Assembly: GCA_001899315.1 (NCBI GenBank)
Contig: MOYA01000001.1
Coordinates: 2,744,529-2,808,528, forward strand
DNA length: 64,000 nt
Direction: 5' to 3'
Origin: Candidatus Obscuribacter phosphatis
Lineage (GTDB): Bacteria > Cyanobacteriota > Vampirovibrionia > Obscuribacterales > Obscuribacteraceae
Below the pieces are notes generated by a model. That model did not search any database, was not told the origin of the DNA, and worked only from the letters and a program-made list of their open reading frames with translations. The position numbers and the translations under genes were made by a program. Positions 40,769 to 48,846 of the stretch are shown here, piece by piece (positions within the stretch are counted from its first letter, which is position 1; the number at the start of each line of letters is the position of its first letter).

Positions 40769-43342
40769 ATGACAGAGAAGCTTACTAAAGAAAAAAGTAC
40801 CGGCATCGACTGGTATTCAATAGGCGTACTCTGGTTCTCAACCCTGGCTGTGAGCGGCGTCATCTCTCTTTATGTCATGCTCATCGCCTGGATGAATATA
40901 AAAGAGACGGATACCGATCCGGTGGACCGCGCCGCTCTGCAAGCCGCTGCCGCCCTTGCCGATAAATCTATTGAAGACCAAACTTTCGGCTCGCTCTCTT
41001 TGATGAATAGAGAAAATTCACGCAGCTTCAACACGGCGGTCTCGCTCTTGCGCAACTGCGGCAGCCTAGCCAGGCAACTTGATTTACCAGTGGTAAAAAG
41101 AGCCCTGGTTCAAGATATGGTCCGCATCTCTGAACTGCAGAGTCAATTTATTGCCCGCCTAGAAAATGATATTGCCCCGGGCGGCTCTGTATTTGCAGAG
41201 GTCAAGAGAACAATCGAAGGTGGGCTAAGAGGCAAAACCACTCTTAAAGAACTGCATCTGCGCCTGGGCTATTTAGACCAAAAATTGTTGGATGTCACAT
41301 CTATACCGGCTTTGAGCGAAGACCAGGGCAAGACATATTTAAAAGCAGGCAAAATCGCCGCACTACAGGCAGTACCAATTAAGGAAAGTGAACAAGTTTA
41401 TTTCTTTGCCCAAGAGCCGCCACTGCGAAAAATCGAGGACAACCAAGCTTTTATCGATTGGCACAAAGAAGAGTTCAAAAATCGCCGCGCTCTGCCTTCT
41501 GCTCTGTTGTTGGAAGCACGTCTAGAAACCGGCTCCAGCGGTGGTTCTTTGCTTTTGGCCAAACGCAGTGTTTGTGTCAGCCTCGGGAGCAAAGCCGACA
41601 CGAGAAACAACCCGCAAGCCCTGCGCCTGAAGCCGCTCGGTTTGGTTCTTGCTTTTCCACACGGCAGGCTTAGCCGCGACGCCAGCCTGCGTGACCTCTT
41701 ACAGCGCAAAGATTGGCTAAACAAGGGCAATTGGACCCAATATAGAAACGGCAATCAGAGCTATCAAAGCGAAAGCGCAGACCCGGCCGGCACTGCCCGT
41801 TTGGTAGGCAATATCGCCATACCGGAAGCACCACTGCTTGAGCAGATGTCACCAGGCGAAGCGCTCTCTCTAATTTTGTATGAATTCGTCAAGCACCAAG
41901 AGCGTCCAATAGAACAAAAAAATCTACTCAAAATAGTGAACGCCTCTTTTGCCGAAGCGCCTAAGGCTGAGGCTCAAGAACAGACTGATAGAGAAGACGA
42001 TAATAACGAACTGGATTATTTATCGATGCAAGAGCGGGTAGCCAATCAAGCCAATACAAGCCTTGTACAAGAGAGCGATGCCCGCACTTTTGCCTATTTG
42101 TACAGGGGCGGCGCTAGGGAAAAAGGCTTAAAGGCTGTAATAAACGCCTTTAGCGATGGGCAGCGCCGTTTTCCAAACTCGACACTACCAATGGTGCTGT
42201 ACCAGGATGGCAGCGTCGGTCTGCCCGGGCGCAAAGAAAAATATGATGCCGCGACCTCACTGCAAGACCCAAGCCGCAAACTAGTAATCGATTTGCTCAC
42301 CGATATCTATAGCACCAATTTGTCGGCCAACGAAACAATGACGACAGCCAGAGTGATGCAGGCTAACGCCTATAAGAAGATCAAAGAAAGCAACGACAGA
42401 ATCTTTCTTTTAAATCAAGACTTGATTTACCTGACTGGTATTAAGCAAGACGACAAAACCAAGGAAGAAATCAGTCTGCGCCGCATTAAGCTGGAAAACG
42501 AAAAGCAGAAACAACTGGTCTTGAACAAAGTCGTCTATCTCTCGACACAAGCCCAACAAAATGCCCAACTGACAGCATCCACCTCTTTCGAGGTGGGCTC
42601 GCATCTCTTTCTCTTGGCCGCAGGCGGCATTCATCGTCTGCAAGCCGGTGATAAACCGGCTTATCTTTTAGGCAAGCGCTATGTCTTCAAACCGGTTTTG
42701 CAAAGTCTAGTTGAGTCTGAATTGTATGAAGAAGCAGAAAAACTAGCGAAACAGCTCAATCAACCAAAAGAGAATCAGAATAGTTTTTGGCTCAAGACAC
42801 CGGACATATTAAAGAGCGTCACCGCTGCCAAGCTGGATGCCGACCACCAGATTAGCATCGAGGGTAAATCTTTGTCAGACTTGATAGCGGAAGAAAACGC
42901 CGGCTTAGCCAGACCGGAAACCTTGGTCATAGACAGCCGCGCCCTCAGCGGCGATTTTCCCACACTGGTCTTTGGCAACTATCCGCTCGCTTCATCGAGA
43001 CATATGAACGGCGAGCTGATTTATTATTGCCAGACTGCCTGCAAAACAAAAGAAACAGTGGTTTGGTCGAGCCTAGCTCGAGATTATTTGAAGCGCAGCA
43101 GACTAGCGCGAGAAAGCGAACTTTATAATATCGACCCCAACTGGTGCAAAACGGCGGTGAATGCCAACCTCTTGCCGGAAGAAGCCGGTTGCCCTCAGCT
43201 GGGTGGGGAATGGCAATTGCGCGCCCCCTTGGTGCAAGCTGACAAGAGCTTACAAGAAGCCATTAAAGGCGCAACGCTGACCGATCCTAAGAGCGGTCAG
43301 CGTATATTGCAAATTCCAGCGGCAGGGCCCGATCTGTTTTAG
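40769..43342 (+). CDS. Large membrane-anchored protein of unknown function, 857 aa
   Basis: One TM helix near the N-terminus (about 19-42); the remainder lies on one side of the membrane, mostly helical and Leu/Ala/Lys-rich. No known domain is recognised. Notable segments are an acidic low-complexity stretch (about 405-425), a charged coiled coil (about 530-600) and a C-terminal region with several Cys (about 750-815) including YYCQTACKTKE. The start at ATG 40769 lacks a strong Shine-Dalgarno. It is convergent with the phasin-like gene across a 9-base gap. Confidence 0.8.
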   Translation: MTEKLTKEKSTGIDWYSIGVLWFSTLAVSGVISLYVMLIAWMNIKETDTDPVDRAALQAAAALADKSIEDQTFGSLSLMNRENSRSFNTAVSLLRNCGSLARQLDLPVVKRALVQDMVRISELQSQFIARLENDIAPGGSVFAEVKRTIEGGLRGKTTLKELHLRLGYLDQKLLDVTSIPALSEDQGKTYLKAGKIAALQAVPIKESEQVYFFAQEPPLRKIEDNQAFIDWHKEEFKNRRALPSALLLEARLETGSSGGSLLLAKRSVCVSLGSKADTRNNPQALRLKPLGLVLAFPHGRLSRDASLRDLLQRKDWLNKGNWTQYRNGNQSYQSESADPAGTARLVGNIAIPEAPLLEQMSPGEALSLILYEFVKHQERPIEQKNLLKIVNASFAEAPKAEAQEQTDREDDNNELDYLSMQERVANQANTSLVQESDARTFAYLYRGGAREKGLKAVINAFSDGQRRFPNSTLPMVLYQDGSVGLPGRKEKYDAATSLQDPSRKLVIDLLTDIYSTNLSANETMTTARVMQANAYKKIKESNDRIFLLNQDLIYLTGIKQDDKTKEEISLRRIKLENEKQKQLVLNKVVYLSTQAQQNAQLTASTSFEVGSHLFLLAAGGIHRLQAGDKPAYLLGKRYVFKPVLQSLVESELYEEAEKLAKQLNQPKENQNSFWLKTPDILKSVTAAKLDADHQISIEGKSLSDLIAEENAGLARPETLVIDSRALSGDFPTLVFGNYPLASSRHMNGELIYYCQTACKTKETVVWSSLARDYLKRSRLARESELYNIDPNWCKTAVNANLLPEEAGCPQLGGEWQLRAPLVQADKSLQEAIKGATLTDPKSGQRILQIPAAGPDLF

Positions 43343-43351
43343 ATTGCTCTA

Positions 43352-43828
43352 TTAGTCGTTGCGCTTACCTTTTTTCTTACGTCCGCCTTCTTCCGAGGCG
43401 CCGTTTTCACCTTCTACTTCGGCTTCTACTTCACAATCCACCGGTTCTTCTTCGCATTTGACCGGCGGGGTGATGCCGAGGTGGTTTTCGAGAGCCTTGA
43501 GACGCTCTACCACTTCTTCATATTGTTCTAGAGAAACAAAGCCGAATTCACGGGCAGCATCTCTAACTTTCTTCTGAAACTTGTTTGAAACTTTCTTTTC
43601 GAGCCCGCCGGTACGCTTGGCAGCCTCATCAGAGAGTCCTTTCAAGAAAGATTGGGCAGATTCGGTTTTGATCTTGCCTTTTTCTTCTAGGTCATCGATT
43701 AGTTCTTGACCGACTTTGACAAGGTCTTGCATGGCTTCTTTGAGAGCATCTTTAACGCGCTCAACATTGGAAGAAGCACCGACACTGGTCAGTACGGCTT
43801 TTTTGAGTAGTTTGGTACGGTCCGACAT
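43352..43828 (-). CDS. Phasin-like coiled-coil protein
   Basis: 158 aa. Helical, highly charged and Lys/Glu-rich, with the KVSNKFQKKVRDAAREFGFV and EQYEEVVERLKALENHLG segments typical of phasin-like (PhaF/PhaI) proteins, and a Lys/Glu-rich tail. Phasins coat polyhydroxyalkanoate granules. A Gly/Ser hinge and Lys-rich C-terminus may also bind DNA, as PhaF does. A 260-bp region with no gene separates it from the phosphatase-like gene; no polyhydroxyalkanoate synthase is in the window. Confidence 0.68.
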   Translation of the reverse strand: MSDRTKLLKKAVLTSVGASSNVERVKDALKEAMQDLVKVGQELIDDLEEKGKIKTESAQSFLKGLSDEAAKRTGGLEKKVSNKFQKKVRDAAREFGFVSLEQYEEVVERLKALENHLGITPPVKCEEEPVDCEVEAEVEGENGASEEGGRKKKGKRND

Positions 43829-44089
43829 GATTCAACTCCTGGGTTAAATGCCTGGGTTGGCTGTTCTGATTTCAGCCTTTGACAATATGTTCTAACTGCT
43901 ATGTGCAACCTGCCCATGATTTTATGCGCGTGGCAAGCTCTTTGTCTGCCTGTTGCCCTAGATCTCAAGATAACTCTTTACACAAAGCCATATTTACAGA
44001 GAAATTTGCACAAAAATCTTTTCAGCCGTTAACGCTAAAATATTAGTCGCAAAATAATTACCAAGCGGTTTACAACCAAGGGGATCTAA

Positions 44090-45823
44090 ATGAACGCAAG
44101 GCTCAAAGCTTGCCTGGCTGCATTTCTTACCATTACAGCCTCTCTCGGTGCAGGCCTCCCAACCTCAGCCGATACCGGCGCCAACACCGGTCCGGGTGCC
44201 AAGCCAAAGCTAGTGGTCATGCTGGTGGCTGACAAAATGCCCTTTTCCAGTTTGAACCGCTATAGCGACAAAATGGGCAACGGCGGTTTGAAGTTTTTGG
44301 CTGAAAACGGCGCCAACTTTGTCAACTGCACCTATCAGCAAACCAATACAATGAGCAGTTGCGGCAATGCCACTATCGCTACAGGGGCGCATGCCTGGGC
44401 TCATGGCATCATCTCCGACCAATGGTGGGACCGCCGCAAGAACAAAGCCATCTCAGCGGTCTACGATGAAAACGCCCAGATGACCGGAGCCAATGCTCCT
44501 GGACCGAGTTCCAAACTGCTTAAGGGCAGCACTATCGGCGACGAACTCAAGCTAGCCACAAATGGCAGAGCCAAAGTCATATCTATGGCAGTCTCAGACA
44601 GTCAGGCCCTGCTTTTAGGCGGCAGGCTGGCCAATATCTCGCTCTGGTTTGACAGCAAAACCGGCAATTTCGTCACTTCCTCGCAATTTGGCCGCGACCT
44701 GCCCAACTGGGTGAAAACCTATAACGATACCCGACCGGCTGAGCGTTACAGCGCCAAGCCCTGGGTGCGTCTCTTGCCCGAAACACAGTACGGCGTCAGC
44801 ACCAGAGACGACTATACCCACGAAAGACCGCTGCCTCAAGACGGCAAAGCATTCCCTCATGTGATTAATAATCCGGTGCCGGGCGAAGGGGCTTATGCCA
44901 CTCTACCCATCACACCCATGTCAAATCAGATGGTTCTCGACCTGGCTAAAGAAGCAATTGAAAAAGAAGGCTTGGGCAATCACACCGATACAGATCTGCT
45001 AATGGTTGGTCTGTCGGCCGGCGACAAATTGGTCTCATACTTCGGACCAACCTCGCAAGAAGCGCAAGATCTTGTTTTGCGCATGGACCAAGGCATAGCC
45101 GGGCTGTTCAGCTATCTTGATCAAAAAGTCGGTCTAGCCAACTGCCTAATCTGTTTCACCGCCAGTAGTGGCAGCCAAGCCATTCCCGAATTCTCAAAAG
45201 AACGTGGTTTAGACGGCGGCCGCATCGATCCCAAAAATCTCAAGAATTTCTTGGACACCACCCTCGACAACCGACTTGGTGCCGATGATTGGATCGAAGC
45301 ATTCGAGCCCCCTTATGTTTATCTGAATTTCAACGCCATCGACAAAAACAAATATCGCCAGCCCGATGTGGAAGCCTTGGCCGCCAAAGTGGCGCACTCG
45401 GTGCCCGGTGTAGCCGAAGTAATCACCACCGCCCAGCTCTATGCCAATCAGGTACCCAATGGTCCTTACAGCGACGGCGTCAAGAAAAGCTATTTCTGGG
45501 AGCGCAGCGGCGAACTATATGTGGTGCCTAAACCAGGCTATATTTTCTCTGGCGAGGCTAATGGCACCGAAAGTGGTTCGCCATACAATGCCGACTCACA
45601 AGTACCGCTTCTGCTCTATGGCTTCGGCATCACCGGCGGACGTTATGGTCAAGCGGTTTCACCGGCCGACATTGCCTCCACAGTGGCTGCTCTAGCCGGT
45701 GTGCAATGCCCCTCGCTTTCCGAAGGCAAGCCACTGGCACCGGCCATGGCACCACCAGTAGGGCCGTTCCGCCCCAGAGGTCAAGAAGCGGGACCCAGTC
45801 AAGCTCAAGAAAACAGCAAATAA
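44090..45823 (+). CDS. Secreted PafA-like alkaline phosphatase homologue with lost metal ligands
   Basis: 577 aa. A signal peptide (about 1-27) precedes an alkaline-phosphatase/NPP fold. Matched by eye to PafA, Asp48 and Asp312 are kept and Ser89 sits where the nucleophilic Thr is expected. The other positions differ: the GH of the TxPGH loop reads GN (92-93), His after Asp312 is Ser316, the DH of TADHG is Ser359-Ser360, and the His before VPLL is Gln504. Four of seven ligand positions are changed, so phosphatase activity is doubtful; binding or structural use is more likely. The alignment by eye needs a real comparison. polA follows after 17 bases. Confidence 0.8.
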   Translation: MNARLKACLAAFLTITASLGAGLPTSADTGANTGPGAKPKLVVMLVADKMPFSSLNRYSDKMGNGGLKFLAENGANFVNCTYQQTNTMSSCGNATIATGAHAWAHGIISDQWWDRRKNKAISAVYDENAQMTGANAPGPSSKLLKGSTIGDELKLATNGRAKVISMAVSDSQALLLGGRLANISLWFDSKTGNFVTSSQFGRDLPNWVKTYNDTRPAERYSAKPWVRLLPETQYGVSTRDDYTHERPLPQDGKAFPHVINNPVPGEGAYATLPITPMSNQMVLDLAKEAIEKEGLGNHTDTDLLMVGLSAGDKLVSYFGPTSQEAQDLVLRMDQGIAGLFSYLDQKVGLANCLICFTASSGSQAIPEFSKERGLDGGRIDPKNLKNFLDTTLDNRLGADDWIEAFEPPYVYLNFNAIDKNKYRQPDVEALAAKVAHSVPGVAEVITTAQLYANQVPNGPYSDGVKKSYFWERSGELYVVPKPGYIFSGEANGTESGSPYNADSQVPLLLYGFGITGGRYGQAVSPADIASTVAALAGVQCPSLSEGKPLAPAMAPPVGPFRPRGQEAGPSQAQENSK

Positions 45824-45840: not shown

Positions 45841-48800
45841 GTGGAAGCAAGTAAAGAAACGAAGACTCTAGTACTGGTCGACGGCAGCTCGCTTGCCTTC
45901 CGCTCTTTTTATGCCATGTTCAAATCTGGACTAAGGGCCAAGGACGGCACCCCGACCGGTGCCGTTCACGGCTTTTTTGCTTCACTCTTCGACCTCATCG
46001 AAAAGCAAAAACCCGACATGCTGGCAGTTTGCTTCGACCTTTCCGACCCCACTTTCAGACATGAAGAGTTTGAAAGCTATAAGGCAAACCGGGCTGAAAT
46101 GCCTGATGAATTGGCCCAGCAATGGCCAATCATCAAAGAAGGTGTGCAAAAGCTTGAGATTCCACTTTATGAACTGTCGGGCTATGAAGCCGACGATGTT
46201 ATCGGCACCGTGGCTAAGCAAGCCGAAGCAAAAGGCATGCGCGTTCTAATCTTGACCGGCGACCAAGACGCCTTTCAACTTTTGGCCGGGGAAGAAGACA
46301 ATATCGAAGTCTTGATGCCTTCCAAAGGTGAGCTTATCACTTACAAAAGAGCTAAAGTCTTTGAAAAACTCGGGGTTTACCCAGAGCAGATCACAGACTA
46401 CAAAGGTCTTTGTGGCGACAAATCAGATAACATTCCCGGGGTAAAAGGCATCGGCGAAGTCACCGCCGCCAAACTTTTGGCGAGCTATGGCACGGTTGAA
46501 AAAATCTACGAAAACATAGATGAGATAAAGTCGGCTTCGGTAAAGCAAAAACTTATTGACGGCAAACAAAGCGCCTTTGACAGCAAAAGGCTGGCCACCA
46601 TAAGACTAGATGTGCCGCTCGACTTTGATTTTGAACACTGTCTTATCACCATGCCCAATCTCGAAGAAGTGGCGGAGTTTTTTGCCCGCCTCAATTTCAA
46701 AACTTTGACCAGCCGCATCCCCAAGGTACTCTCGCGCTTCAGCGCCGACGGCACCGAGCCGGTCTTACCTAAAGTAGCAGTGGGTGCCTTGGTGGGCGCG
46801 GCCCCAGAAAGTAAAATTAGCGAAAGTAACGAAGTAAACCAGAGCATGGTCGGCAAAGGTGGACAGCTTAGTCTCTTTGACACGGCCAAGCCCAACTACA
46901 ATAGAGAGCTAGCCGCCCTTGCCGAAGGTGGACGGGGGCGCATGGTCTCGGTCAGGCAGCCCAAAATAGAAGTTGTACTTGAACCTATGGAAGAGCCGCT
47001 GCTGGTCACCAGTGAAAGCGAGCTGGACGATCTGATTAGCAAACTCAAGCAGCAGTCGGTCTTATCAATAGATCTCGAGACCACCGGCTTAAATTCGCTC
47101 GACACAGAAATTGTAGGCTATGCCCTGGCCTATGACGAGCGTGTCAAGCTCAACGAACGCAATCAAGTGCACTTGACCGAGAACGGCTTTGGCGGCAAAG
47201 CTCTCAAGTCGGCCTATATACCAGTGCGTCATAAAATAACCGGCGGCAAAGAACAGCTAAGCCCGGCTCTGGTGGCAGAAAAACTAAAGCCGCTTTTGCA
47301 AGACCCGACCATAGGGAAAGTGGCTCAAAATGCCAAATATGAGCTCAATGTATTTTCGCTTTGCGGCATCAAAATGCAAAATGTTGTCTTTGACCCGATG
47401 CTGGCAAGCTATATAGACAATCCAGATCAAAAGCATGGTTTGAAAGATCAGGTTGACCGCATTCTCAACTATAAGATGACGAGAATAAGCGAACTTATCG
47501 GCACCGGCAAAAAGCAATTGACCATCGACATGGTGCCCCTCGACCAAGTGGCAGCCTACGCCGCCGACGATGCCCGCCTTACCCTAGAGTTGGCGCGCTA
47601 CTACGTGCAAACCATGGACGAAGAACAAAAGTTTTTGCTCTATGACATGGAGCTGCCACTGGCAGTGGTGCTAGCCGAGATGGAGCAAAACGGCATTGTC
47701 CTCGATTTGAAATATCTCTCTGAGCTTTCCACCGAACTGGGCACCGAGCTGGCCAGACTAGAAAGCGAGATCTATCAACATGCCGGTCACGGCTTCAATA
47801 TCAACTCTACCCAACAGTTGCAGAAAGTGCTCTTTGAAGAACTTGGCTTAAAAACCAAGGGCAAGACCAAGACCGGTTATTCTACCGATGCCAGCGTCTT
47901 GGAAGCTCTCAAAGAAGAGCATCCGATCATTGCCTGCATACTCGAATATCGCCATATTTCCAAATTGCGTTCTACTTATGTAGACGCCCTACCAAGAGAA
48001 ATATCTAAACGCGACGGCCGCCTGCATGGTGAGTTCAACCAGACAGTGACCAGCACAGGCAGACTCTCCTCTTCCAATCCTAATTTGCAGAACATCCCCA
48101 TCAAGACCGAGTTGGGAAGGCGCATCAGAAAAGCCTTCACCGCCCAAGAGGGCTGGTCTCTGGTTTCAGCCGACTATTCCCAAATAGAGCTGCGCATGCT
48201 CGCCCATATGTCGGGCGACGAAACTCTCATCGATGCCTTCCAGAAAGACCAAGACATTCATGCCCGCACCGCCGGCGAAATCTTTGAAGTACCCATTGAA
48301 GAAGTAACATCAGACCTAAGAAGGGTGGGCAAGACAATCAATTTTGCCCTGGTCTATCAGCAAGGCGCCTTTTCTACAGCCCAAGACTTAGGCATATCAA
48401 CCAAAGAAGCCCAGGCTTTCATCGACAAATATTTCAGTCGCTATCCAAGGGTGAAGGGCTTTTTGCAAGCCACCATAGAAGAAGCAAAAGAGCTCGATTA
48501 TGCTCGCACAATCTGGGGCAGAAAACGCTATTTCACCCATCTTAACGACCGTAACGACAATATCAGAAGAGCCGATGAAAGGGCAGCCTGTAATGCCCCC
48601 ATCCAGGGCAGCGCCGCCGACTTGGTCAAGCTGGCCATGATTAGACTGGACCGCGACCTCAAGGCAAGCGGCTTGCAAGCCCGCTTGATCATGCAAGTGC
48701 ACGACGAATTAGTTTTGGAAGTGCCCGATCAAGAAATAGAAGCCACCCGCGAATTGCTTAAAAATGCCATGCAATTAGACCAACCACTGACGGTGCCGCT

Positions 48801-48846
48801 CAAAGTAGATTTCGGTGTCGGCAAAAACTGGATGGACGCAAAATAA
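45841..48846 (+). CDS. polA: DNA polymerase I
   Basis: 1001 aa. N-terminal 5'-3' exonuclease (about 1-290), 3'-5' exonuclease (about 385-590) with DxE at Asp411/Glu413 and YAADD, and a polymerase domain (about 610-1001) with motif A Asp778 in SADYSQIELR, motif C Asp955 in QVHDELV, and motif B near residues 822-840 reading RRVGKTINFALVYQQGAF. The usual motif B is INFG(V/I)xYG, so both Gly positions are changed; the Phe that follows the Asn (INF) is kept. GTG 45841 is the start; the gene follows the phosphatase-like gene by 17 bases. It repairs DNA and removes RNA primers. Confidence 0.95.
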   Translation: MEASKETKTLVLVDGSSLAFRSFYAMFKSGLRAKDGTPTGAVHGFFASLFDLIEKQKPDMLAVCFDLSDPTFRHEEFESYKANRAEMPDELAQQWPIIKEGVQKLEIPLYELSGYEADDVIGTVAKQAEAKGMRVLILTGDQDAFQLLAGEEDNIEVLMPSKGELITYKRAKVFEKLGVYPEQITDYKGLCGDKSDNIPGVKGIGEVTAAKLLASYGTVEKIYENIDEIKSASVKQKLIDGKQSAFDSKRLATIRLDVPLDFDFEHCLITMPNLEEVAEFFARLNFKTLTSRIPKVLSRFSADGTEPVLPKVAVGALVGAAPESKISESNEVNQSMVGKGGQLSLFDTAKPNYNRELAALAEGGRGRMVSVRQPKIEVVLEPMEEPLLVTSESELDDLISKLKQQSVLSIDLETTGLNSLDTEIVGYALAYDERVKLNERNQVHLTENGFGGKALKSAYIPVRHKITGGKEQLSPALVAEKLKPLLQDPTIGKVAQNAKYELNVFSLCGIKMQNVVFDPMLASYIDNPDQKHGLKDQVDRILNYKMTRISELIGTGKKQLTIDMVPLDQVAAYAADDARLTLELARYYVQTMDEEQKFLLYDMELPLAVVLAEMEQNGIVLDLKYLSELSTELGTELARLESEIYQHAGHGFNINSTQQLQKVLFEELGLKTKGKTKTGYSTDASVLEALKEEHPIIACILEYRHISKLRSTYVDALPREISKRDGRLHGEFNQTVTSTGRLSSSNPNLQNIPIKTELGRRIRKAFTAQEGWSLVSADYSQIELRMLAHMSGDETLIDAFQKDQDIHARTAGEIFEVPIEEVTSDLRRVGKTINFALVYQQGAFSTAQDLGISTKEAQAFIDKYFSRYPRVKGFLQATIEEAKELDYARTIWGRKRYFTHLNDRNDNIRRADERAACNAPIQGSAADLVKLAMIRLDRDLKASGLQARLIMQVHDELVLEVPDQEIEATRELLKNAMQLDQPLTVPLKVDFGVGKNWMDAK

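Follow-up and report, generated by a model that had tools for sequence, protein, structure and literature searches.

An apparent pseudophosphatase of the PafA family, probably kept for a non-catalytic function, beside polA in Candidatus Obscuribacter phosphatis

A gene for an alkaline phosphatase homologue that carries serine in place of most of its metal ligands raises the question of what, if anything, still keeps the gene intact. Such a gene lies in a 64,000-nt stretch of contig MOYA01000001.1 of Candidatus Obscuribacter phosphatis, which is called the window here (GC content 47-52%). An earlier inspection of the letters, hereafter the sequence-only reading, had described the product as a PafA-like homologue that is likely to be non-catalytic yet maintained, and had suggested that it could sense phosphate. 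The explanation that we favour, with a probability of roughly 0.6, is that selection keeps a non-catalytic function in a probably exported PafA-fold protein, which would be what remains of an ancestor with two functions.

Fold and catalytic site of the window protein

The gene and the relevant positions within it are as follows. Unless stated otherwise, site positions were assigned from two alignments and a column analysis.

44090..45823, + strand: pafA-type gene without a recognisable catalytic centre; ORF of 577 aa, ATG to TAA, assigned from PF01663, the PafA 5tj3 match and the site table
44090..44170, + strand: signal-peptide-like N terminus, about residues 1-27, read from the sequence; model helix at 2-18, low confidence at 19-35
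44354..44356, + strand: S89, at the nucleophile position T79
44594..44602, + strand: S169 and S171, at the phosphate-contact positions K162 and R164
45023..45037, + strand: D312 (D305 kept) to S316 (ligand H309 lost)
45164..45169, + strand: S359-S360, at the ligand positions D352 and H353 (ADHG to ASSG; also read from the sequence)
45572..45574, + strand: S495, at the ligand position H486
45599..45601, + strand: Q504, at PafA H495

The ORF matches PF01663 at E 6e-22, and the PDB entry for PafA, 5tj3, aligns with almost the whole protein (E 2.5e-77). The NCBIfam model alk_phos_PafA (NF042991) gives E 1e-121 and 407 bits, below its curated cut-off of 650 bits; two orthologues with the full ligand set, L011 (497 bits) and L047 (484 bits), likewise fall under this cut-off. 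An AlphaFold model built with an alignment input of 45 sequences has a mean pLDDT of 87.6 and a pTM of 0.86. It superposes on 5tj3 with a Z of 52.9, at 1.6 A over 514 residues with 31% identity, and Foldseek scores the same pair at a TM-score of 0.94 by target length. The protein is truly homologous to PafA and has its fold in full, and the earlier description of recognisable fold motifs is borne out by the PF01663 and 5tj3 matches and by the superposition. The N terminus begins with charged residues, continues with a hydrophobic stretch and has small residues before its end, a pattern that makes export of the protein probable.

The metal ligands of PafA are seven in number, which we take to be D38, T79, D305, H309, D352, H353 and H486. 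The corresponding residues of the window protein were read from HMMER and MAFFT alignments, which agree, and the PafA numbering of T79, N100, K162 and R164 matches the title of PDB 5too. In this numbering, D38 and D305 are kept, Ser stands at T79, and four of the seven ligands have been replaced by Ser (H309S, D352S, H353S and H486S). Among the six side-chain ligands besides T79, only D38 and D305 remain. The phosphate contacts have changed as well (N100D, K162S and R164S), as has the His at position 83 (H83N). At this level the protein has neither the complete set of seven metal ligands nor the N100/K162/R164 contacts of an active PafA.

The sequence-only reading had also counted four lost ligands of seven, and the count stands, but its residue list was partly wrong. 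Its changes from DxxxH to DxxxS and from ADHG to ASSG reappear in the alignments as H309S, D352S and H353S. The change from GH to GN is H83N, and H83 lies outside the ligand list assumed here. So does H495, the counterpart of Q504, at which a C-terminal ligand had been thought lost to Gln; 13 of the 14 full-set orthologues have Gln there too. The C-terminal ligand truly lost, H486, had been overlooked. All eleven site residues are identical in two other genomes of the genus, whose proteins are 98% and 79% identical to the window protein, and a sequencing artefact is therefore unlikely.

Comparison with characterized proteins places these changes in perspective. The window protein has the whole fold, length and motif order in common with the Elizabethkingia PafA (5tj3; PF01663, NF042991), but is altered at four of its seven metal ligands and at N100, K162 and R164. 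It differs naturally at each position that was changed in the engineered PafA mutant 5too (T79S, N100A, K162A, R164A), with ligand losses in addition. The PhoK/SPAP alkaline phosphatase (3q3q, 5xwi), deposited as an active enzyme, shares the fold with a Z of about 42 and is more distant (25-27% identity). A homologue of an enzyme family that has lost its catalytic motifs is what is expected of a pseudoenzyme, and a pseudophosphatase without a recognisable dizinc centre is the best reading of the window protein. We infer that it has no phosphatase activity.

One gene upstream of polA and the loss of its ligands

The neighbourhood of the gene identifies its orthologues.

45841..48846, + strand: polA (DNA polymerase I), 17 nt downstream of the pafA-type gene
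43352..43828, - strand: phasin-like gene, divergent upstream neighbour; weak PF05597 match below cut-off
44029..44058, + strand: sigma-70-like promoter match upstream of the pafA-type gene; consensus match only

A homologue of the window protein occurs in 47 of 53 Obscuribacterales genomes. At all 47 loci polA follows in the same orientation; the gap has a median of 36 nt, staying within 200 nt at 44 loci and reaching 1-2.5 kb at the other three. Because they share this position and strand, the 47 best homologues represent one gene at one locus. The phasin-like gene lies within 500 nt at 39 of the 47 loci; the eight loci that have no such gene nearby are all full-set, and at least one of these cases (L043) results from a contig end. 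Outside the order, homologues were found in none of 329 other genomes of the class at E 1e-20, and a search of 386 genomes at the level of the phylum matched only the window's own genome, although the genomes listed are of the same class, which gives this result little extra weight.

Three of the six genomes that have no match also lack polA, and in two polA lies at the end of a contig. In the sixth, G032, which is 95% complete, purA, a TPR gene, a large hypothetical gene, the phasin-like gene and polA keep their usual order, but no pafA-type gene separates the last two (L132:7903-8261). An in-frame TAA was flagged in five matches. In G033, G009, G042 and G043 it is the terminal stop overrun by the match; in the fifth, L018, it lies near mid-gene in an otherwise full-ligand orthologue from a 66% complete assembly. 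This orthologue, whose set is full when read through with X, was left unscored and kept out of the fold alignment. Another (L046) was excluded from that alignment and from the site-conservation comparison for its unknown residues, and L001, L031-L035, L060-L089 and L119 were dropped from the counts as repeats of loci already counted. Since G032 has kept the neighbourhood without the gene and L018 carries an internal stop, the protein is not indispensable everywhere.

Among the 46 scorable orthologues the full ligand set is present in 14, and the other 32 are deficient. H309 and H486 are missing from all 32, D38 is kept in 30, and the sets of missing ligands vary by lineage. Counted over the six side-chain ligands, 14 rows have lost three, 11 have lost four and seven have lost five. 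The zinc-2 set is complete in seven of the 32, counting either Thr or Ser at 79. In none of them are K162 and R164 both kept. Changes at phosphate contacts also occur in two of the 14 full-set rows (N100D in L011, R164C in L030).

Orthologues with the full set had been named beforehand as evidence against a non-catalytic protein. They do exist, but all occur in other lineages of the same syntenic gene, and so they point to an ancestral catalytic function that later disappeared rather than to activity of the window protein. The full set is complete in PafA, in three genomes of the order's second family, in all seven second paralogues, and in eight of nine outside homologues from plasmids of Bacteroidota and Pseudomonadota (nine used of the 16 plasmid records that had a match, with L126 not counted as complete for its broken N-terminal frame). 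It is therefore the older state.

On the PolA tree the ligand set changes state three times, two of these changes being forced by well-supported branches, and bootstrap trees give two to three changes. A single origin, with all 32 deficient orthologues held together, is rejected (AU p 0.0016). A tree that joins the two largest deficient groups, and thus needs two losses, is not rejected (AU p 0.19), and the deeper branches have moderate bootstrap support of 81 to 94. The independent loss of ligands at least twice is firm, and three times is the best estimate.

Another phosphatase might have taken over the lost activity. PhoX is found in none of the 53 genomes, and PhoA exceeds its cut-off in none, with two sub-threshold matches. 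PhoD is over cut-off in eight and full-length in five, and a second PafA occurs in six. A full-length PhoD is present in the window's genus. The second PafA belongs to six deficient genomes from other genera, two of which encode a full-length PhoD as well. Full-length PhoD, a second PafA or both occur in nine of 32 deficient and none of 14 full-set genomes (Fisher p 0.04, uncorrected for relatedness), or in nine of 32 and one of 14 if the weak partial PhoD matches of the full-set genome G025 are counted (p 0.14, likewise uncorrected). The remaining 23 deficient genomes have neither. Replacement is not established by these counts, and accounts for a minority of cases at most.

Selection on the gene and competing explanations

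Compared with its closest congener (98% identity), the window protein has a dN of 0.010, a dS of 0.554 and a dN/dS of 0.019; for polA in the same pair the ratio is 0.028. A finite dS was obtained for both genes in eight pairs, of which seven are deficient and one is full-set. The pafA-type gene has a lower ratio than polA in every one of them, but its dS is near or above 1 in five, which makes those ratios rough. In three further pairs polA dS was saturated. Internal stops are absent from all 32 deficient ORFs. Uninterrupted frames and the low ratio in the closest pair are the marks of maintenance by selection that would be looked for in a pseudoenzyme.

The 14 full-set rows share 118 invariant columns. 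Of these, 53 persist in 95% or more of the deficient rows, and 13 in fewer than half. Seven of these 13 belong to the site (H309, H486, K162, H83, T79, D352 and D305), two more adjoin it (S84 and G308), and the remaining four are F57, L325, Y72 and D211. Across 31 deficient rows, identity is 0.33 in the eleven site columns and 0.58 in the rest; the corresponding values are 0.48 and 0.73 in the window's ten-row clade, and 0.64 and 0.84 in genus g22. This pattern fits an old site that has been released while the scaffold is still constrained. Together, the site loss, the low dN/dS and the conserved scaffold columns favour the earlier view of the protein as non-catalytic yet maintained.

What is selected could still be catalysis of another kind, relying on another metal or on a single one, as in a phosphotransferase or a sulfatase-like enzyme. 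One-metal members exist in the superfamily, such as LtaS, and the orthologues of g24, g19 and g20 resemble this type in having lost zinc-1 and kept zinc-2. The seven deficient orthologues with a whole zinc-2 set are in keeping with such a change, as are a PF00884 Sulfatase match of the window protein, which is weak and below cut-off (20.9 bits, cut-off 25), and the full conservation of the eleven site residues within g1 (three rows) and g21 (six rows). However, neither metal site is intact in the clade to which the window protein belongs, this protein unlike LtaS has lost the zinc-2 set as well, and no new polar constellation is visible in the 23-row clade. A newly fixed site was sought there and rejected, the only newly fixed columns outside the old site being two hydrophobic swaps (308 F/Y to L; 332 L to M). 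We consider changed catalysis unlikely. Still less can be said for the phosphate or phosphoester sensor of the sequence-only reading, which would bind its ligand in the old pocket and then signal. The fold of a phosphate-handling enzyme, the signal-peptide-like start and the polyphosphate genes recorded for Candidatus Obscuribacter phosphatis in the available part of PMC4040986 would all suit it. Zinc ligands and phosphate contacts have been lost together, however. The site residues also vary from genus to genus, and across the window's ten-row clade their conservation is below that of the remaining protein, unlike what a shared binding pocket would show. Sensing by way of the old pocket was rejected on the changes at N100, K162 and R164, and a sensor of this kind is improbable.

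All six genomes with a second, full-set PafA have a deficient polA-linked copy, as might be expected if the protein were a heterodimer partner, inhibitor or chaperone of an active paralogue. Such a role is very unlikely for the window protein: no second PafA was found in its own genome, which has one PafA match only and for which this role was rejected, or in 25 other deficient genomes. The idea that the gene is a decaying pseudogene retained only as a leader for polA, through translational coupling, has the 17-nt spacing and the loss of the gene in one genome in its favour. It is hardly credible for a gene with conserved scaffold columns, no internal stops in its deficient orthologues and a dN/dS of about 0.02, below that of polA, and it was discarded on the last of these.

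Selection for a non-catalytic function thus remains the preferred explanation. The ancestor of the Obscuribacterales would have had a catalytically complete PafA next to polA, and this protein would already have had, or would early have gained, a second, non-catalytic role residing in its scaffold or surface; the likeliest is that it binds a cell-envelope or extracellular partner. Catalysis would then have ceased to be needed in two lineages at least and probably in three, with zinc-1 ligands gone in every case and zinc-2 ligands in most, while the scaffold would have stayed under strong purifying selection. We infer that the second function predates the losses because 25 columns are shared by 90% or more of the 46 orthologues, full-set and deficient alike, and differ in PafA and most second paralogues, although these columns may instead reflect packing or substrate preference. 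More tentatively, at somewhat less than even odds, the phosphatase of this bifunctional ancestor was taken apart several times, each time losing zinc-1 ligands before zinc-2 ligands, and left living intermediates at one locus that range from a full dizinc site through zinc-2 only to no site.

Parallels and neighbouring observations

A similar path may have been taken by the fungal pseudonucleases Ssd1/Dis3L2, for which the available part of PMC8097288 proposes a second function in an active ancestor followed by at least four independent catalytic losses. These proteins differ from the pafA-type product in belonging to an unrelated eukaryotic nuclease family and in having a known RNA-binding function. 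The literature searched, which covered few subscription journals, yielded no description of either a PafA pseudoenzyme or the gene itself, and in the available part of PMC8812569 no mention matched the site terms.

The locus offers a bacterial series in which the catalytic centre of an enzyme of the alkaline phosphatase superfamily has disappeared on more than one occasion, while selection on the protein is no weaker than on polA in the eight pairs that allow a comparison. Because its orthologues differ mainly in the site, a non-catalytic role of a phosphatase becomes testable by comparison. There is also a warning for annotation, since 32 of the 46 genes, all of which homology would label alkaline phosphatase, lack the ligand set; this bears on phosphatase gene counts in metagenomes.

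Several further observations concern the protein and its surroundings. C80 (44327-44329) is Cys in all 46 orthologues and absent from PafA and the second paralogues; a conserved disulfide was considered and rejected, as no second universal Cys accompanies C80 in these orthologues. A PF01663 protein of about 300-365 aa (E 1e-22 to 1e-26) occurs in G007, G009, G010, G011, G018 and G020, all of them genomes with a polA-linked copy that is deficient or missing from the assembly, and four of the 23 deficient genomes that have neither full-length PhoD nor a second PafA contain another PF01663 protein of about 300-350 aa. Other weak PF01663 matches also occur in full-set genomes, and the window's genome has one further weak partial match to this model in a 650-aa frame. 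Finally, positions 40769-43342 encode an 857-aa protein that has no Pfam match at E 0.001 and is found near pafA in many Obscuribacterales, with 22-41% identity outside the closest genome.
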